From NCBI GenBank assembly GCA_022781395.1, contig JALETS010000118.1, forward strand, positions 1-35,830: a stretch of DNA of 35,830 nt, in the 5' to 3' direction. This document shows, piece by piece, positions 22,066-30,470 of this stretch; position 1 is the first letter of the stretch, and every line of letters begins with the position of its first letter. The stretch comes from Lachnospiraceae bacterium. GTDB taxonomy: Bacteria > Bacillota > Clostridia > Lachnospirales > Lachnospiraceae. Below the pieces are notes generated by a model. The model was not told the origin of the DNA, did no database searches, and saw only the letters and a list, made by a program, of their open reading frames with translations. A program made the position numbers and the translations under genes.

Positions 22066-23829
22066 CTACATCTGCAACTGCCGCAGTTGATAAAACTCAC
22101 CTTTTTTCTCCATCAGTTCCTCATAACTGCCGAATTCTTTCAGTCCGCCTCTGCCCACCACAGCAATGTAATCTGCATTCTTAATAGTGGCCAGCCTGTG
22201 TGCTACAATTAGTGTAGTGCGATTCTGTACCAGGTTGTCGGTCGCCACACGGATTTTTTCTTCCGAAATACTGTCCAATGCCGAAGTGGCTTCATCCAGA
22301 ATCAATATTTTCGGGTCCCTGATAAAAGCTCTTGCAATTGAGATTCTCTGGCGCTGTCCTCCGGAGAGATTACTGCCATGCTCCATAACCATTGTGTCCA
22401 GACCATCCGGAAGCTGTGCAATAACCTCTGTCAGATTAGCAGCCTCCACAACCTCCTGCAGACGTTCCTCAGAGATATCTTCTTTCCCATAAGTAATATT
22501 TTCCCGAATCGTTCCCGAAAACAGAATCGGAGTCTGCGGTACAACAGCAATGTGGCTTCGATAGCTGTGCAGATCAATTTCTTCTATATCATAGCCGTCA
22601 ATCAACACCTTTCCTGCGGTGGCGTGCAGAAAGCCGATTACCATATTCAGGATCGTGGTCTTTCCGGCACCGGATTCTCCTACAAAAGCAATGGTCTGAC
22701 CTGCCTCTATCTTCAAGTTCAGATGTTCAAACACCGGCTGGTCACCATCCAGATACCGGAAACCGGTATCCTGAAATGTAATTTCTCCGTGCACAAAAGG
22801 CAGTTTCTTCTTATTATAGTTATCCTCCACGTCATGAGAAAGCAGAACATCCGCAATAGAATCTACGGATTCCAGCCCCTTTGCAATCGTGGGCAACAGC
22901 GTAATTATCCCGGACACCTGTGCCACAATAGTGCCGAAATAGGTCTGATACATGACGACTTCACCCACACTGATTTTGCCTTTACTTGCCAGATAACCCG
23001 TAAACCCTAAACAAAGCACCTGAAAAATCTGAAAAGCAACCCAGCTGATAGAGGAAAAGTAGGACTGTACTATGTCCAGTCTGAGTCCTGACTTCGCCAC
23101 ATGCCGAAGCTGATAATCCATTTTATCGGTTTCCTGCTGTTCCAATGCGTGTGCTCTGGTTACGGGAATCATATCTATCATTTCCATCACATGAACCGAT
23201 GTTTCCTCCATATCCTTACGGAACTCTTTGTTATATCTCTTGATCTTACCTTTGAACGTTACCATAATAAGAACCGCTACCGGTATTGTTCCGATAAAGA
23301 AAGCAAAGACCGTAAGGCTCTTAGTCACTACAACCGCCAATGCCACTGCAACATTCAGGATAATACTCAAAACAGTAATGAAAATCTGAGAAGACAATGT
23401 CTCAATCTGTTCCACATCACGCATAATCTTGGACTGCAATCTGCCGGATTGCATCTCCTTATGGTATGTAATGGATAATTGCTGCAGTTTCCGAACAAGC
23501 GCGCTACGCAAATCCTGTTCCACATTCCGGATTGCCCTGGCGTAAAACAGTGTATGAAAATAATTGGTCAGAACATTCTGGGCTATTATTACTACCATAA
23601 TTATTACATTAATTATAATTCTTCTGCCCGCATCTGCCCCCGGATTCGTTACGATGTTAATGATGTTCGAGGTAACAATCGGCAAAACCCATACCGGTGA
23701 ATGCTTGATAACAAAAAACACAACGGATAAAAACAATTCCGGATAATGCCCCTTATAGATTCCAAATAATGTTTTTAAGGAATGATTCTGATTTCGTTTA
23801 AAAGTATCCAGCAAAGTTCCCTTTTCCAT
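22066..23829 (-). CDS. ABC exporter, fused membrane and ATPase domains
   Basis: Half-transporter of 587 residues. The six-helix exporter domain spans about 30-320 and the ATPase domain 345-587. Walker A GESGAGKTT, signature LSGGQRQRISIAR, Walker B ILILDEATSALD and H-loop VAHRLAT are all canonical, so it can work as a homodimer. Drug, peptide or lipid exporters share this plan; substrate unknown. ATG at 23829 follows GAGGAAAG. It begins 23 bases after the GH113 mannanase gene, with no terminator between, so the two are probably co-transcribed. Confidence 0.9.
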   Translation of the reverse strand: MEKGTLLDTFKRNQNHSLKTLFGIYKGHYPELFLSVVFFVIKHSPVWVLPIVTSNIINIVTNPGADAGRRIIINVIIMVVIIAQNVLTNYFHTLFYARAIRNVEQDLRSALVRKLQQLSITYHKEMQSGRLQSKIMRDVEQIETLSSQIFITVLSIILNVAVALAVVVTKSLTVFAFFIGTIPVAVLIMVTFKGKIKRYNKEFRKDMEETSVHVMEMIDMIPVTRAHALEQQETDKMDYQLRHVAKSGLRLDIVQSYFSSISWVAFQIFQVLCLGFTGYLASKGKISVGEVVMYQTYFGTIVAQVSGIITLLPTIAKGLESVDSIADVLLSHDVEDNYNKKKLPFVHGEITFQDTGFRYLDGDQPVFEHLNLKIEAGQTIAFVGESGAGKTTILNMVIGFLHATAGKVLIDGYDIEEIDLHSYRSHIAVVPQTPILFSGTIRENITYGKEDISEERLQEVVEAANLTEVIAQLPDGLDTMVMEHGSNLSGGQRQRISIARAFIRDPKILILDEATSALDSISEEKIRVATDNLVQNRTTLIVAHRLATIKNADYIAVVGRGGLKEFGSYEELMEKKGEFYQLRQLQM

Positions 23830-23852
23830 GATTGCTTTCCTCTTGTATTTTA

Positions 23853-24782
23853 TTATTTATTCCGGTAAAAATCTCTGATAACCGTTTCTGCAGGCTTTCC
23901 ATAGATGTCATAGCCTCTGTCCTTCAAAGCCGCCTGCAGGGAATGCTGCTTCCATGCCCAGTCCCACATACAGAAGCCTTCTACAAAATCACGTTTTCCG
24001 GCCTTTTCAAACATCCTGTTGTACCACGCTGCCTGTTCCTCCAGATTCAGCGCTCCCCGCACGGTCCAGTCATTGGGAACTCTTGCAGAGCCCTCCGTTG
24101 ACATACATCCAGTCTCTGCAAAAAAGAACGGCTTTTTAAACTTTCTGACAATCGCCTCAATTCTGTCTAGTTGACTATCCCAGTCATCAATCGGATAGTA
24201 GCCACTGGAAGATATCACATCCACACAATCCCACCAGGTCACGTTATCTTCCTGGTACTTATCCGTGTTATAAGAGACCGGTCCGTCATATACGGTACGT
24301 ATATCAGCAATCAGTTGTCTCCACTCATTCTCCCGATGCTCCGACATCACCATTTCACAGCCGGCAATAAACATCTCACAGCCGGTCTGCTTCGCAATTC
24401 CCGCATAATGCATCTGAAATTCGGTATAGCTTGCAAACCAGTTACACCATTTGGGTTCACAAGGCACATCCTTATCAAAGAAATTGATATGGGCGCGCCA
24501 GGTACCGTTTTTACAGTTTGCAGTTGGCTTCAGCGCCACCCTAAGACCCTTGACATGAATATAATTGATCATCCTGATAAGCTCCTCATCAGACATAGTC
24601 GCCTGACTATTATAGTCAATCGTTTCTGACTGCGGCGTATCCTGCACACCATTAGGCACCAGAATGATAAAATTTGCCCCTGTTCTCTCTATCAGATGAT
24701 CCATACTTGTATATGCCTCTTTAGTTTCAAAGCTTCCTCTTCCCGCAAATGCTCCGAAGGTAATTCCCTTGATATATTCCAT
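23853..24782 (-). CDS. GH113 beta-mannanase, cytoplasmic
   Basis: A (beta/alpha)8-barrel glycosidase of 309 residues resembling GH113 endo- or exo-acting beta-1,4-mannanases. Putative acid/base Glu143 lies in AGCEMVMS and nucleophile Glu223 in FFAETG; the 80-residue spacing equals that of AaManA (Glu151/Glu231). The start IKGITFGAFAGRGSFET is typical of the family. There is no signal peptide, so it acts on imported oligosaccharides, as the reducing-end mannose-releasing RiGH113 does in Roseburia intestinalis. ATG at 24782 is chosen since AAGGAG lies about 10 bases upstream; the open frame further upstream overlaps the divergent AraC promoter region. Confidence 0.88.
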   Translation of the reverse strand: MEYIKGITFGAFAGRGSFETKEAYTSMDHLIERTGANFIILVPNGVQDTPQSETIDYNSQATMSDEELIRMINYIHVKGLRVALKPTANCKNGTWRAHINFFDKDVPCEPKWCNWFASYTEFQMHYAGIAKQTGCEMFIAGCEMVMSEHRENEWRQLIADIRTVYDGPVSYNTDKYQEDNVTWWDCVDVISSSGYYPIDDWDSQLDRIEAIVRKFKKPFFFAETGCMSTEGSARVPNDWTVRGALNLEEQAAWYNRMFEKAGKRDFVEGFCMWDWAWKQHSLQAALKDRGYDIYGKPAETVIRDFYRNK

Positions 24783-24942
24783 CTGTCGTTTCTCCTTTTC
24801 TTCACTATACAAAGCCGTCCATCCCATCCTAATTTCCCGGCCTCTGATAAAAACAATATAGCAACTCCTCCCCTGCAATGCTATAATAAAAGCACACAAA
24901 AATTGTACAAATCTCTTATCATACATGAGAAAGGATTGGAAA

Positions 24943-25821
24943 ATGAATTATCTGTACGAAAGCGCTGATATCTTAAACTCTCCCTATGAAGCCTTTCTGT
25001 TCGATGCCGCCTATGGGAACTTTCCCATCAGACCACACTGGCATTATTATGTAGAAATTATTTATGTAATAGAAGGAAACGCTTTTATGGAAAGCAATCA
25101 AAAAGAATATTATGTATCTGCCGGGGATCTGATTCTGTTCCATCCCGGAGACATTCATGCTATTTACGCCGCAGATGCCTCTTCCATTAGATGCCTGGTC
25201 CTCAAATTCGATATCAACCGTCTTGTCGTTAAAAGCAGCTATACACCAAAACTGTCTGCCATTCTGCAGTATGCCCGCAAATCCGAGCAGGCCGATATTC
25301 TGTTCCCGGCCCGGCAGATACAGAATCTGCCGATAGAAGACCGCCTTCGCACTTGTATCCGGGAGCTTCAGGACAAAAGCTATGGCTACGATGTCCGAAT
25401 CCACGGGGAAATCAGTTCTCTCCTGATTGAGATGATCCGCATTTGGCAGACAGAAGGACTGCATATTGAGGAGCTTTATTCTGTCTGCTCGGAAGTACAC
25501 AGTTCTCTGCAGAACATCACGGAATATATTGACAGCCACTCCAATGAAATGCTTAAAGTAGAAGACCTTGCTGACATGTGCCACATGAGCTACTCCCATT
25601 TTGCCAAGTGCTTCAAAGAGCTTTATGGACGTTCCTGTAAAGATTACATAGAGCTGATTAAAATAGAAAAAGGGGAAGAACTGCTTCTTTTCACAGATTC
25701 TTCCCTCTCAGAAATCAGCCAGGAAACCGGCTTCTCGGACTGCAGCCACTTCATCAAAACCTTCCGTAAATGGAAAAACATCACTCCCGGGCAGTTCCGG
25801 TTACAGCAGCGCAGGCAATGA
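24943..25821 (+). CDS. AraC-family transcriptional regulator, cupin type
   Basis: Regulator of 292 residues. Residues 15-90 form an AraC-binding cupin with the motif RPHWHYYVEIIYVIEG and a second box GDLILFHPGDIHAI. The C-terminal 100 residues are a double helix-turn-helix, with SEISQETGFSDCSHFIKTFRKWKNITPGQFR. ATG at 24943 follows AGAAAGG by about 8 bases; an ATG at 24925 in frame has no ribosome site. TATAAT at 24882-24887 may be its -10. It is divergent from the GH113 gene, which it probably controls. Confidence 0.9.
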   Translation: MNYLYESADILNSPYEAFLFDAAYGNFPIRPHWHYYVEIIYVIEGNAFMESNQKEYYVSAGDLILFHPGDIHAIYAADASSIRCLVLKFDINRLVVKSSYTPKLSAILQYARKSEQADILFPARQIQNLPIEDRLRTCIRELQDKSYGYDVRIHGEISSLLIEMIRIWQTEGLHIEELYSVCSEVHSSLQNITEYIDSHSNEMLKVEDLADMCHMSYSHFAKCFKELYGRSCKDYIELIKIEKGEELLLFTDSSLSEISQETGFSDCSHFIKTFRKWKNITPGQFRLQQRRQ

Positions 25822-25833
25822 TTTATAAAATTG

Positions 25834-27606
25834 TTATGCCGAAAACTGTGCCATATAGAGCTGATAATAGATACCTCTCTTCGCCATCAGTTCCACCGCA
25901 TTTCCTTCTTCCACGATCTTACCGTCATCAACAACAAAGATACGGTCTGCCTTCTGAATCGTAGACAGTCTGTGTGCAATAACAAAGGAGGTTCTGCCTG
26001 CAAGCAGATGCTCGATACCACTCTGCACCAGAAGCTCTGTCTTCGTGTCAATACTGGAGGTTGCCTCATCCAGTATCAGGATCTTGGGATCGGACACCAT
26101 TGTTCTGGCAAATGCCAGAAGCTGCCTTTGTCCGATAGAAAGTCCACCACCACGCTCTGAAAGCACTGTATCATAGCCTCTCGGCAGTTTCATGATAAAA
26201 TCATGGGCATTGACTGCCTTAGCCGCTGCAATAATCTCATCCTCTGTGGCGTCCAGCTTACCATAACGGATATTGTCTCTGATCGTACCGGAAAAGAGGA
26301 AATTGTCCTGTGTCATGATACCCATCTGCCTGCGCAGGCTCTCGATCGACACATCCTTCACATCATATCCGTCAATCTTCACGGTTCCGCCCTGTACATC
26401 ATAGAAACGGCTGATCAGATTGACGATGGTAGATTTTCCTGCACCGGTAGGTCCTACCAGAGCAATGGTCTCTCCCGGCTTGATCGTAAAGCTCACATCA
26501 TCCAGCACTTTTACCTTATCATCATAAGAGAAATCCACATGTTCAAAGGTTACTTCTCCCGTAATCTCAGGCATTTCCTTCACACCCTCTGCATCCGTGA
26601 TGGCAGGCGGGGTGTCCATAATCTCAAAGATTCTCTCTGCTCCCGCAATATTAGTCACCAGCTGGTTATAGAAGTTGCTGATATTGTGTATGGGCTGCCA
26701 GAACATATTCAGGTAAGTTCCGAAAGCAATGAATACACCTAACGATACCTGATCCACACCCAGAATAACAATTCCTGTGAAGTATAACAGAATGCAGCCA
26801 AGTCCCCAGGACAGATCAATGACCGAACCAAAAGCATCGCTCATACGCACTGCACTGCCAAAAGATTCCCTGTGCTCCTGCAGCAATGTATCAAAGGTCT
26901 TCTCAGTCTCTTCCTGCGCATGAAAGCTGTGTATGATACGCATCCCCGCCATATCTTCATGGAGAAAAGCATTCAGATTGGCTGCTTTCTTACGGAAGAT
27001 CTGCCAACGTGGGTGAGCCTTATATTCGATATAGAAAGTTGCCAATGCCATAAACGGGATGGTCAGCATCGAAGCCAATGCCAGTTTCGGGTTTTTCCAG
27101 ATCATAATAACCACAACCGCAATAACCGTAAGTCCATCCGGGATCAGTGTTGTTACACAGTTTGACAATACATCCTTCAGGGAATTGATATCCCCAATAA
27201 TACGGGACAAAATCTTACCCGTTGGTCTGCTGTCAAAGAAATGGAAATCCAGCTTCTGAATATGCGTATACAATTCCTGTCTGATCGTCAGTAGAATCCG
27301 GTTGCACACCTTCGCCATAATATACATCCGTATTTTTACGGTAACAACCAATGCCAGATTGAGGATAAGAGCGATACCCAACAGCTTATACAAACCATTC
27401 CAATCCTTTATGGCAATGTGATCATCTATCGCCGCTTCCATAATAAGTGGATTTACCAGACTGACCGTTACTCCATAGCCCATGATCAGAAGCACAAGTA
27501 AAATCTGTCCTTTATAAGCAAAAAGATACGAAAACAGCCTCTTTAAGGTCTGCAGCTTGCTTCTCTCTATGCTCTGTTCATCTTCTTTATACGAATTGAC
27601 TGCCAT
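25834..27606 (-). CDS. Heterodimeric ABC exporter, catalytic-site subunit
   Basis: Half-transporter of 590 residues with a six-helix membrane domain (about 30-320) and C-terminal ATPase. Walker A GPTGAGKST, Walker B ILILDEATSSID with the catalytic Glu, and H-loop IAHRLSTI are intact, but its signature is LSIGQ in place of LSGGQ. Its partner has the opposite defect, so the pair should form one working and one degenerate ATP site, as in BmrCD, LmrCD and TM287/288. ATG at 27606 follows GGAGGG and overlaps the partner gene by 20 bases. Multidrug or peptide export are the likely roles. Convergent with the AraC gene, 12 bases from its stop. Confidence 0.92.
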   Translation of the reverse strand: MAVNSYKEDEQSIERSKLQTLKRLFSYLFAYKGQILLVLLIMGYGVTVSLVNPLIMEAAIDDHIAIKDWNGLYKLLGIALILNLALVVTVKIRMYIMAKVCNRILLTIRQELYTHIQKLDFHFFDSRPTGKILSRIIGDINSLKDVLSNCVTTLIPDGLTVIAVVVIMIWKNPKLALASMLTIPFMALATFYIEYKAHPRWQIFRKKAANLNAFLHEDMAGMRIIHSFHAQEETEKTFDTLLQEHRESFGSAVRMSDAFGSVIDLSWGLGCILLYFTGIVILGVDQVSLGVFIAFGTYLNMFWQPIHNISNFYNQLVTNIAGAERIFEIMDTPPAITDAEGVKEMPEITGEVTFEHVDFSYDDKVKVLDDVSFTIKPGETIALVGPTGAGKSTIVNLISRFYDVQGGTVKIDGYDVKDVSIESLRRQMGIMTQDNFLFSGTIRDNIRYGKLDATEDEIIAAAKAVNAHDFIMKLPRGYDTVLSERGGGLSIGQRQLLAFARTMVSDPKILILDEATSSIDTKTELLVQSGIEHLLAGRTSFVIAHRLSTIQKADRIFVVDDGKIVEEGNAVELMAKRGIYYQLYMAQFSA

Positions 27607-29392
27607 CAGCTATCCCTCCTTTCACTTGACTCACAGAGTCATTACTTCTCATTTCTCCGTTTTCCGGCACCGTATCCATAGCACTTCCATACTGAGACTG
27701 ATAAGTCTCATAGTACAGACCGCCTTTAGCAAGCAATTCCTCATGGGTTCCCCGCTCTGCAATAGCGCCGTTTTCCAATACGATAATCTCATCTGCATTT
27801 CTGACTGCACTGATTCTATGTGCGATGATGATTTTGGTCGTATGCTCCAGCGTCTTTAATGTCTCCTGAATCAGATGCTCCGTCTCCATATCAAGAGCTG
27901 ACGTGGAATCATCCAGCACAAGGATCGGATCTCTCTTAGCCAGGGCACGGGCAATGCTGATACGCTGTTTCTGTCCGCCGGACAGACCCACGCCTCTCTC
28001 TCCAATTACCGTGTCATACTGCTCCTCCATCCGCTCGATAAATCCACTGGCCTGGGCATCTGTAGAGGCTTTCCTTACGGTTTTAAAGTCTATGTAATCC
28101 TTTTTACCCAGCTTGATATTCTCATTGATAGTCTCCGAAAACAGGAATACATCCTGCATCACGTAGCTGACACTGGTACGGAGCTGCTCTAAGGACAACT
28201 CCTTTACATCCACATCATCCAGATAGATAGCACCGTCCGTGGCATCATACATACGCTGCAATAACTGTACAATGGAAGTCTTACCGGCCCCGGTAGTTCC
28301 CATAATACCCAGCGTATGTCCTGCCTCTACCGTAAAAGAAATGTCATGCAGGATTTCATGCAGATCCGCCTTGTGGAAAGACACATGGTCAAAGCATATC
28401 CTTCCCCGAACCTTATCGAGTCTGACAGGCTCTTCTTTCTCCACAACGCTCGGCTGCTCCCGATAAATCAGCTTAATCTTTTTATTGGATGCTACCGCGG
28501 AAGAGAAGCTGTTGGTCAGCCACCCCAGCATCTCCATAGGCCACACAATATTCGTGGAATATTCTACGAAAGCCGTCATCTGTCCCAATGTCATCTCACC
28601 GTCAATTACAAACTTACCACCGACTAATATAGTCAACAATGGCAGAACTTTTGTCACGACTGAAAACATCGGATAGTATTTCACAAAAACAGCAGACTGC
28701 TCCATATTCAGATCATAATATTTCTGGTTGTGAGACAGGAATTTTCCTATCTCATATTTTTCCCTGGCAAAAGCCTTAACGGTACGGACTCCTGCCAGAT
28801 TCTCCTCTGCCACTGTGTTAAGTGCTGCATTTTCCTCACTGATCTCCTCATAGACCTGCCCCAGCTTCCGCTCCATGATCACAGCAATGGAACCGCACAG
28901 AATCATGGCCAGAGTAGGAATCAATGCCAATTTCCAGTTCAGCATATACATACACACCAGAATGATGACCGTATGGTAAGCCACTTCTATCAGAAGCATG
29001 CTCACATATCCAAGCGCATCCCATATCCTGTCAATATCCTCCTTGATGCGGGCCATCAGTTCTCCCGTATTGGTCCGGTCAAAGAAATCTGCGCTCAGAC
29101 TCTGCACATGACGGAACAGATCCCGTCTCATATTGCCTGATATCCTGGAACCGTTGATATCGAAGGTATATTCCTTGATATACTGGAAAATACATCTTCC
29201 AAGTCCAATCCCCAGAAACCCCAGTAACAAATACTTCAATTCTCCGATATTACCGCCTACGATAACATCATCCACCACATGCGCTGTAAGCCGCGGCGCC
29301 AGCATATCCAGCGTGACCGCAATAAAAAGTGACAACAGCGCCAACAAATAGGACCATTTATATTCCCATATGTAACTTGATAATTTTTTCAC
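27587..29392 (-). CDS. Heterodimeric ABC exporter, degenerate-site subunit
   Basis: Half-transporter of 601 residues, first of the overlapping pair. Six membrane helices (about 10-310) are followed by an ATPase with Walker A GTTGAGKTS, a canonical signature LSGGQKQRISIAR and H-loop IAHRISAV. Walker B ends ILVLDDSTSALD, with Asp where the catalytic Glu should be, the hallmark of the degenerate partner. The GTG start at 29392 has AAGGGGGAAA upstream and no ATG nearby. It lies 172 bases after a 33-codon ORF, with two hairpins in the gap, so expression may be controlled by attenuation. Confidence 0.92.
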   Translation of the reverse strand: MKKLSSYIWEYKWSYLLALLSLFIAVTLDMLAPRLTAHVVDDVIVGGNIGELKYLLLGFLGIGLGRCIFQYIKEYTFDINGSRISGNMRRDLFRHVQSLSADFFDRTNTGELMARIKEDIDRIWDALGYVSMLLIEVAYHTVIILVCMYMLNWKLALIPTLAMILCGSIAVIMERKLGQVYEEISEENAALNTVAEENLAGVRTVKAFAREKYEIGKFLSHNQKYYDLNMEQSAVFVKYYPMFSVVTKVLPLLTILVGGKFVIDGEMTLGQMTAFVEYSTNIVWPMEMLGWLTNSFSSAVASNKKIKLIYREQPSVVEKEEPVRLDKVRGRICFDHVSFHKADLHEILHDISFTVEAGHTLGIMGTTGAGKTSIVQLLQRMYDATDGAIYLDDVDVKELSLEQLRTSVSYVMQDVFLFSETINENIKLGKKDYIDFKTVRKASTDAQASGFIERMEEQYDTVIGERGVGLSGGQKQRISIARALAKRDPILVLDDSTSALDMETEHLIQETLKTLEHTTKIIIAHRISAVRNADEIIVLENGAIAERGTHEELLAKGGLYYETYQSQYGSAMDTVPENGEMRSNDSVSQVKGGIADGSQFV

Positions 29393-29443
29393 ACCTATTT
29401 CCCCCTTATAACTCCACAGATGTTATGCAGCTTCTTCTCTCAC

Positions 29444-29466
29444 ATAAGCAGCCTCGAATTGCTTAT
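29444..29466. other. Second hairpin in the ABC exporter leader
   Basis: ATAAGCA (29444-29450) pairs with TGCTTAT (29460-29466) across a 9-base loop, between the larger hairpin and the exporter start codon. It may help shape the leader RNA; the stem is short. Confidence 0.35.
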
Positions 29467-29477
29467 ACACGCAGAAA

Positions 29478-29516
29478 GGCTGTGGTAACATAACCTTACG
29501 GTTTATTACCACAGCC
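29478..29516 (-). terminator. Possible attenuator hairpin before the ABC exporter genes
   Basis: A perfect 11-bp stem, GGCTGTGGTAA with TTACCACAGCC, encloses a further AACC/GGTT stem with loop GTAA. On the minus strand it is followed by TTTCTGCG, a weak U-tail. It lies 48 bases after the stop of the 33-codon ORF and 86 bases before the exporter start codon, the position of a conditional terminator. Confidence 0.55.
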
Positions 29517-29564
29517 CTAAAAAGCCTTGCATAAATATTGATTGAATCAGTCTATAATACTCCC

Positions 29565-29666
29565 CTAATCCAGTCCTCTATCTGCGGAGGTAATCTCACG
29601 TAATGTGCCAATGTTTAATTGATTGTTATTAATGTTCAGATTAAAGTTTAAATGCTTATTAAACAT
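29565..29666 (-). CDS. 33-residue Asn-rich leader or signal peptide
   Basis: Short ORF with an ideal ribosome site, AAGGAGGT six bases before ATG at 29666, and a consensus promoter about 45 bases further up, so it is very likely translated. The peptide starts MFNKHLNFNLNINNNQLNI, with eight Asn in the first 18 residues in an alternating polar/hydrophobic pattern, and ends in a charged tail (REITSADRGLD). It has no Cys, no signal peptide and no membrane segment. I do not recognise it. Codons 25-27 (ATT ACC TCC) are exactly complementary to its own ribosome site. The downstream hairpin and ABC exporter pair suggest a regulatory leader like BmrB; an exported peptide is the alternative. Confidence 0.6.
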   Translation of the reverse strand: MFNKHLNFNLNINNNQLNIGTLREITSADRGLD

Positions 29667-29710
29667 ATTATTACCTCCTTCCTGAAATGTATGCCGAACC
29701 ACATGTCGCT

Positions 29711-29739
29711 ATCATAATACAGAAGAATATATCTGTCAA
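29711..29739 (-). promoter_or_regulatory. Consensus sigma-A promoter of the leader ORF and ABC exporter
   Basis: On the minus strand TTGACA (29734-29739) and TATGAT (29711-29716) are 17 bases apart. Transcription would start near 29704, giving a leader of about 310 bases before the first exporter gene. Confidence 0.75.
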
Positions 29740-29759
29740 TCTCTTTTTGGAAATTTTTG

Positions 29760-30470
29760 CTACTCTCCGAGATATGCCTTCTTCACTGCCTCATTATTTA
29801 ACAGTTCCTTCGCGTCACCGGATAATGAGATATTGCCTGTTTCCAAGACATATGCCCGGTCTGCAATAGACAAAGCTTTTTTAGCGTTCTGTTCTACCAG
29901 AAGCACAGTCGTGCCGGACTGGCTTACCTTCTTGATAATATCAAAGATCTCATTTACGAAAATAGGTGACAAACCCATAGACGGCTCATCCATCAGAATG
30001 ATACCGGGCTGGCTCATCAGCGCACGTCCCATGGCAAGCATCTGCTGCTCACCACCGCTTAAGGTTCCTGCCATCTGTGTCTTACGTTCTTCCAGTCTCG
30101 GAAATCTCTCATATACCATCTGCAGATTCTCACGAATCTCATCTTTATCTTTTCTTGTATAGGCACCCATCAGCAGATTATCATAGACTGATAACTGAGC
30201 GAACACACGCCTGCCTTCCGGCACATGCGCCATACCCATGGGTACAATCTTATATCCCGGCGTCTTTGTTATATCTTTACCCTCAAAGATAATACTGCCA
30301 CTGGTTGGCTTGATCAGTCCTGTAATAGTATGCAGCGTGGTCGTCTTACCGGCACCGTTTGCACCGATCAGTGCGATAACCTCACCCTGATTTACTTCAA
30401 AGCTGATGCCTTTGATTGCCTCTATTACACCATAATGAACATGGAGATCTTTTACCTCTAACATTGCCAT
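29760..30470 (-). CDS. livF: Branched-chain amino acid ABC importer ATPase LivF
   Basis: Cytoplasmic ATPase of 236 residues. Walker A GANGAGKTT, signature LSGGEQQMLAMGRALM, Walker B IILMDEPSMGLSP and H-loop VEQNAKKAL are all present; EQN in the H-loop region and the length of about 235 mark LivF rather than LivG. ATG at 30470 has AAAGGCAGG upstream; an in-frame TTG or ATG further up lacks one. Last gene of the livJHMGF operon. The importer may serve leucine, isoleucine and valine, or another hydrophobic amino acid or amide; sequence alone does not decide. Confidence 0.92.
   Translation of the reverse strand: MAMLEVKDLHVHYGVIEAIKGISFEVNQGEVIALIGANGAGKTTTLHTITGLIKPTSGSIIFEGKDITKTPGYKIVPMGMAHVPEGRRVFAQLSVYDNLLMGAYTRKDKDEIRENLQMVYERFPRLEERKTQMAGTLSGGEQQMLAMGRALMSQPGIILMDEPSMGLSPIFVNEIFDIIKKVSQSGTTVLLVEQNAKKALSIADRAYVLETGNISLSGDAKELLNNEAVKKAYLGE

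Follow-up and report, generated by a model that had tools for sequence, protein, structure and literature searches.

A promoter, a strong Shine-Dalgarno (SD) sequence, a 33-codon open reading frame (uORF), a hairpin and a pair of ABC exporter genes all lie on the minus strand of the window, the 35,830-nucleotide stretch of Lachnospiraceae DNA analysed here, and this arrangement raises the question of what the short ORF and the hairpin do ahead of the exporter. All five elements had been described in an initial annotation of the sequence and all were confirmed. The same annotation had read them as an attenuator of the bmrB type; its attenuation logic ahead of a BmrCD-like exporter was upheld, whereas the sensing that it placed in the peptide or its asparagine codons was not, and the part found to be conserved is an RNA pairing centred on the SD. 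We consider it likely that the leader attenuates transcription in response to ribosomes that are held up at initiation on the uORF, as with vmlR; a ribosome stuck at the uORF start would then probably turn on a multidrug-type exporter.

Leader elements and the exporter pair

The promoter was the top-scoring match among the 6 kb scanned. The sequence AAGGAGGT is found 6 nt upstream of the uORF ATG at 29666, the uORF stop codon occupies 29567-29565, and 48 nt past the stop begins an 11-bp perfect stem formed by GGCTGTGGTAA (29516-29506) and TTACCACAGCC (29488-29478). Element B, which the initial annotation overlooked, lies near the 3' end of the uORF. Three alternative pairings are found in the leader: A:B (SD:anti-SD), B:C (antiterminator) and C:D (terminator). 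The U-tract of the window hairpin is poor and a terminator scan did not list the hairpin; in many relatives the T-run is longer. The 234-nt leader folded better than 200 of 200 shuffles (z -3.87), and because of this result and of the order from SD to terminator at 81 of 91 exporter loci, the layout is not ascribed to chance. Comparison with Rfam 15 gave no match at the gathering cut-off in the window and none at E ≤ 1 for positions 29370-29780.

Table 1. Features of the leader and of the exporter pair, in window coordinates.
Feature	Position	Strand	Evidence or remark
Sigma-70-type promoter	-35 TTGACA 29739-29734, 17-nt spacer, -10 TATGAT 29716-29711	-	11/12 match
Element A, uORF SD core GGAGGTAAT	29670..29678	-	A:B paired in 304/312 cells, 39 leaders
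uORF MFNKHLNFNLNINNNQLNIGTLREITSADRGLD, 33 codons and stop	29565..29666	-	Peptide not conserved, no codon-position constraint in relatives
Element B (anti-SD), ATTACCTCC within uORF	29586..29594	-	9-nt perfect complement of A GGAGGTAAT; pairs with C too
Terminator-like hairpin C:D	29476..29518	-	5' arm holds GGTAAT (29510-29505), complement of B; weak U-tract TTTCT after
ABC exporter half 1, GTG start, Walker B LDD	27587..29392	-	Pfam and solved-chain matches
ABC exporter half 2, Walker B LDE	25834..27606	-	Pfam and solved-chain matches

Both exporter halves match the Pfam ABC membrane and ATPase domains, no peptidase domain was found among these Pfam matches, and the two ORFs (29392-27587 and 27606-25834) share a 20-nt overlap. 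For half 1, the top solved chains were of the eukaryotic P-glycoprotein type, and the best of half-transporter size was BmrC/YheI (7.5e-94); the solved relatives of half 2 include TM_0288 (1e-117) and BmrD/YheH (2.6e-109). A split of the LDD and LDE forms of Walker B between the halves is expected for such heterodimeric exporters. Judged by sequence, the exporter is a BmrCD-like heterodimeric pair, the halves of which would form a dimer. Genes resembling those for branched-chain amino-acid uptake are present upstream of the leader. The region adjoining the pair (22066-25821 of the window) holds another ABC exporter half, a GH113 glycoside hydrolase and an AraC-type regulator.

Conservation of the leader and of its pairings

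Exporter half 1 was matched in 62 of the 77 genus genomes. Upstream DNA was compared for 58 orthologous loci of at least 75% identity and for 33 further loci with 67-75% identical exporters (91 loci in total); the latter (L139-L171), mostly labelled Lachnospiraceae and including a Roseburia hominis An869 copy (L144), were taken from 80 loci of a named-genome scan, and one genus orthologue with a missing N-terminus (G352) stands outside the 58. The rest of that scan (L092-L138) seems, from the lengths of the contigs, to repeat contigs of the genus set. SD, ATG, B motif and terminator were all present at 81 of the 91 loci (50 of 58 in the genus and 31 of 33 further), the uORF being 27-56 codons long across the 81. 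In 80 of the 81 leaders, compared with 0.8 in shuffles, a loosely defined promoter pattern (TTGAC/TANNNT) was located no more than 150 nt ahead of the SD. The full layout was absent at 8 of the 58 same-genus loci. No such leader was found upstream of the exporter at L017 and L020, a terminator without such a uORF was present at L021, L024, L031 and L047, B and an SD were about 173 nt apart at L056, and the leader region was cut by contig ends at L044, L145 and L159. The initial annotation had tied its reading to conservation of the short ORF and the hairpin among relatives: ORF, hairpin and promoter are indeed kept.

A long palindromic repeat (about GCATAAGCAGAGTCAGAA ... GAGTCTGCTTATGC) recurs in the stretch that separates the terminator from the exporter at L004, L011, L023, L025, L028, L040, L044 and L060, and some leaders have two copies of it. 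Two terminator-like hairpins in series separate uORF and gene at L156, L186, L229 and L248.

The exact SD/anti-SD pattern was found in 40 of the 77 genus genomes, at one locus each (matches on both strands being the same palindromic place), and not in controls. Among 299 family genomes, one per genus, it was found in the window and at one place in G216, apparently the beginning of a coding ORF, against 2 control matches. When the pattern was relaxed, 9 genomes matched at 10 places, and the controls gave 5 matches. Two covariance models were therefore used, R1 spanning B to D and R2 spanning A to B. R1 matched 54 of the 77 genus genomes at 55 places (coordinates compared by eye). Of these places, 53 lie at the exporter, and in 5 of the 53 the match spans only the 3' portion of R1; one is at a contig edge (G340) and one is a weak extra match (G343); it had no match in the 15 genus genomes without an exporter match.

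Across the 299 family genomes, R1 gave 37 places, 33 of which were inspected besides the window. By eye, 11 had the full layout, ahead of 8 exporter-1 orthologues, 1 rsgA gene (L186) and 2 unclear genes (L211, L243); one exporter leader (L188) was degenerate, and the other 21 places were rejected as ordinary terminators or chance. R2 also gave 37 places, which overlap the R1 list, and 32 were inspected besides the window: 21 precede exporter-1 orthologues (L242 assigned by eye, the rest by blastp), 5 precede other or unclear genes (L215, which is L211 again, L220, L237, L243 and L244) and the remaining 6 were false, with exporter-like coding sequence accounting for 2 of these. The exporter-1 orthologues preceded by family copies are 42-69% identical over the part covered. 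R2 matched 7 of 265 class genomes: the window, three places that appear to be true copies (L227, L248 and L251) and 3 false matches. L248 is the only copy outside the family, in another Clostridia family, and its exporter is 44.5% identical.

Covariation was assessed in hand-chosen alignments of 33 leaders (A1) and 39 leaders (A2). The B:C core (6 pairs) was intact in 198 of 198 cells of the 33 aligned leaders, with 1 compensatory change and G-U changes elsewhere. Every covariation measure of this core was matched by 10 of 500 shuffles because the helix hardly varies, and slid B:C partners paired in 6.5 to 69.5% of cells. The A:B helix (8 pairs) was intact in 97.4% of cells in the 39 leaders, 9 of which, like the 25 loci added to the swap test below, were picked from model and pattern matches and by eye with A:B in mind, a choice that favours A:B. 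Pairs in this helix changed from UA to CG in 3 leaders and from GC to UA or UG in 2. None of 500 shuffles reached its percentage paired or its covariation score and 1 reached its number of cells changed on both sides; 81 reached the number of pairs changed on both sides and 118 the number of pair types.

A swap test was used to compare the fit of each leader's own partner with that of another leader's partner. With the 81 loci in 45 clusters, and the terminators of L040, L156 and L167 set by hand, B:C gave about -13.0 versus -11.3 kcal/mol (p ≤ 5e-5) and A:B gave -12.2 to -12.4 versus -12.0 to -12.1 kcal/mol (p 0.001-0.005); C:D served as the positive control and A:C was null (p 0.26-0.37). 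This test is less biased toward A:B than the one with 68 clusters, and weaker for A:B. With the 25 loci added and second terminators used for some loci (L186, L229, L248), the 68 clusters gave z -7.0 to -7.1 for A:B, z -9.6 to -10.0 for B:C and z about 0 for A:C; B:C is the cleaner result in view of how the added loci had been picked. Joint changes were seen in single leaders: L156 changes all three elements (A GGAGGCA, B GATTGCC, C GCAATC), as does L225 (A GAGGTAAAG, B CTTTACCTC, C GGTAAAG), and L232 has B AGAAATACC opposite C GGTATTTCT. In silico, these data point to a mutually exclusive antiterminator and terminator.

The uORF peptide and the proposed switch

The uORF peptide is not conserved at the level of sequence, because codon positions diverge equally (0.211, 0.211 and 0.229, 560 cells each, in same-genus, same-frame, equal-spacing pairs of less than 35% divergence that are not independent of each other). 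A search with the window peptide against the 299 family genomes matched the window only. The frame over B is (E/K)ITS-like in 65 of the 81 leaders and KLP-like in 16, and the third frame does not occur; since there are few independent frame switches, the use of two frames out of three may be chance. Asparagine accounts for 8 of the first 18 residues of the window uORF, all within the 22 codons before B, and by fraction this is the most Asn-rich of the 81 leaders, in which Asn ranges from 0 to 8. From uORF start to B, Asn was present at 2.0 times the composition expectation over the 81 leaders, and F, M, A and H at 1.8-1.9 times. Proline makes up 2 of 1677 residues in the same stretches and Glu is also strongly depleted, perhaps because codons for P and E could act as competitors of B and A. 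In 58 of the 81 uORFs the second codon specifies Phe or Leu. The start codons of L015, L049 and L141 were set by hand in the peptide, composition and folding analyses.

Folding was predicted with and without a ribosome footprint. Before C is made, A:B had at least 5 expected pairs in 80 of the 81 leaders. Once C is made, expected B:C pairs were 1.27 in the free leader versus 5.44 with a ribosome on the AUG (81 leaders); with the ribosome in place B:C rose in 66 leaders and fell in 6, and at least 4 expected B:C pairs were predicted in 47 of 81 leaders compared with 5 of 81 when free. When the footprint was moved in two-codon steps, B:C was 5.4 at codon 1, 4.8 at codon 3 and 2.1 at codon 5, and then near the free value. 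Footprints in the middle of the uORF keep A:B, and those over B abolish both A:B and B:C. In the folding model, B is thus expected to become available to C only while a ribosome sits on roughly the first four codons. For the window leader itself, B:C was 0.0 when free and 0.84 with a ribosome on the AUG, A:B was 8.84 without a ribosome, and the best partial fold masks C by a neighbouring stretch of the uORF, not by B; this low predicted B:C pairing is the proposal's main weak point for the window leader. Because the window's C:D helix (-28.8) greatly exceeds B:C (-9.7) in strength, antitermination would have to be kinetic.

According to the proposed mechanism, A would pair with B when no ribosome is present, so that the C:D terminator forms and the exporter is off. 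During normal translation the ribosome would leave A, cover B and reach the stop, and C:D would form again. A ribosome held on about the first four codons, possibly by inhibitors of initiation or early elongation, would mask A while B stays free; the free B would pair with C, the terminator would be weakened and the exporter pair would be transcribed. The encoded peptide would hardly matter, the switch being the SD of the uORF itself. We infer termination and read-through in cells, and likewise the inducing drugs and the exported substrate.

One alternative, close to the reading of the initial annotation, is an attenuator specific for nascent peptide or codon, in which stalling at the peptide or at Asn codons, in a drug context or upon Asn starvation, would free the antiterminator. 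We regard this as unlikely: the 8 Asn in the window's 22 pre-B codons, the nearly twofold Asn excess over the 81 leaders and the preference for Phe or Leu at codon 2 would fit such sensing, but the Asn count falls to 0 in some leaders, F, M, A and H show almost the same enrichment, codon positions diverge equally, two frames are used over B, and ribosomes in the middle of the ORF leave A:B in place in folding. The exporter family, moreover, is not an amino-acid system, and an Asn attenuator was rejected because a conserved run of cognate codons is absent. The variable peptide also bears on the option that the peptide is itself the product, be it a cargo for export, as the initial annotation allowed, or a toxin or a signal, in which case the hairpin would be a plain terminator or a stem for processing. 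Although the ORF has a promoter and a strong SD and an exporter follows downstream, it is the RNA pairing that is conserved and not the peptide sequence or frame; with no conserved precursor, and no peptidase domain among the Pfam matches of the exporter, an exported peptide or RiPP precursor was rejected, and we hold a peptide product of any kind to be extremely improbable.

Two further explanations leave the peptide aside. A ligand-binding riboswitch or protein-bound leader could form the same hairpins with the uORF incidental, and a small stem (TGAC..GGTCA) between B and the terminator does recur in part of the genus; the stretch is unrecognisable, however, in the other loci of the alignment, the conserved core consists of SD, ATG and anti-SD, and the Rfam comparison was negative at E ≤ 1, which makes this explanation quite unlikely. 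It is very unlikely that control is exerted mainly through translation coupling or mRNA decay, with SD occupancy protecting the transcript, rather than through termination: the SD:anti-SD pairing alone could work as a translational on/off device for the uORF, but the T-run terminator-like hairpins and the B:C covariation fit best with C as the target. Arrest at initiation, sensed through the SD, remains the preferred reading.

Relation to known systems and possible significance

We tentatively propose, as a possibility somewhat short of an even chance, that these leaders form an undescribed attenuator class spread over Lachnospiraceae, with a single copy in another Clostridia family, in which occupancy of the SD, and not the peptide, would report arrested initiation whatever the codons. 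The class would control exporters and, as isolated single copies, rsgA, ABC exporters of other types and a predicted ABC-class ATPase, and would thus constitute a translation-stress regulon of gut commensals. A switch of the proposed kind would give common gut bacteria a defined RNA device for sensing ribosome-targeting drugs and increasing efflux. With the ribosome-binding site as sensor, attenuation could run on any peptide, and searches for conserved uORF peptides would therefore miss such leaders. The A:B:C:D pairing rules would make it possible to annotate the class and to catalogue its targets.

The comparisons with known systems refer to the available excerpts of the cited reports. In Bacillus subtilis, the bmrB leader ORF, with anti-antiterminator, antiterminator and terminator, precedes the heterodimeric exporter bmrCD (PMC4191407). 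The present leader shares with it a leader ORF, alternative structures and a heterodimeric exporter, the halves of which are related to BmrC and BmrD; compared by description, the terminator-like structure of bmrB lies within the ORF, whereas here the hairpin lies past the stop and the anti-antiterminator is SD:anti-SD. For B. subtilis vmlR, ribosome arrest at the start of a uORF encoding MIN is described to block the anti-antiterminator so that the antiterminator forms, and uORFs encoding MDN or MDK are as effective as the one encoding MIN (PMC9226507). The present leader would resemble vmlR in that a blocked footprint at the uORF start releases the anti-antiterminator in folding; as described, vmlR has a 3-codon uORF, an SD in a single-stranded stretch before the stem and an ABCF gene, whereas here the uORF has 27-56 codons, the SD is itself a pairing arm and an exporter is downstream.

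Leaders of clostridial cplR and of Listeria lmo0919/vgaL contain a uORF, an anti-SD element (so termed in a figure legend) and an intrinsic terminator, and cplR reporters with lincomycin and retapamulin depended on the uORF start (PMC10201436); according to the excerpts, the cplR uORF has the consensus MR[I/M] and precedes an ABCF gene, in contrast to the long uORF and exporter found here. Long-range pairing of the uORF in E. coli toiL-topAI is described to be released by start-codon arrest with tetracycline or retapamulin, the outcome concerning topAI translation and Rho termination (PMC12121999) where the present leader has an intrinsic terminator. A survey of premature terminators describes attenuators before ABC transporter genes (ABC-leaders), one of them before a multidrug export operon in lactobacilli (PMC2965389); no SD/anti-SD description was found in its excerpts, and the likeness is by description only. 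The present leader is described neither in the excerpts of PMC11109978 and PMC2965389 nor in the open-access literature, judged by titles and abstract openings among the matches listed. With start-codon arrest known from vmlR and toiL, an anti-SD from cplR and exporter control from bmrB, the switch logic is therefore already known. Different here are the SD as a switch arm, the long uORF with an unconserved peptide, the gene association and the lineage, and a conserved family of this known kind of switch appears to be undescribed.

Same-type leaders were also seen ahead of genes other than the exporter pair. The gene at L186 (G129) is rsgA, a ribosome-assembly GTPase (TIGR00157, 148 bits, cut-off 100). 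Copies precede an ABC exporter with an N-terminal extension at L172/L220, another ABC exporter pair at L244, a PF09818 ABC-class ATPase at L237 and a 94-aa ORF at L243. At L211 (G144:C5) the full element stands without an adjoining exporter and is possibly a relic; a 53-aa ORF is next to it, and an ORF several hundred nt after the element is presumably rqcH-like.
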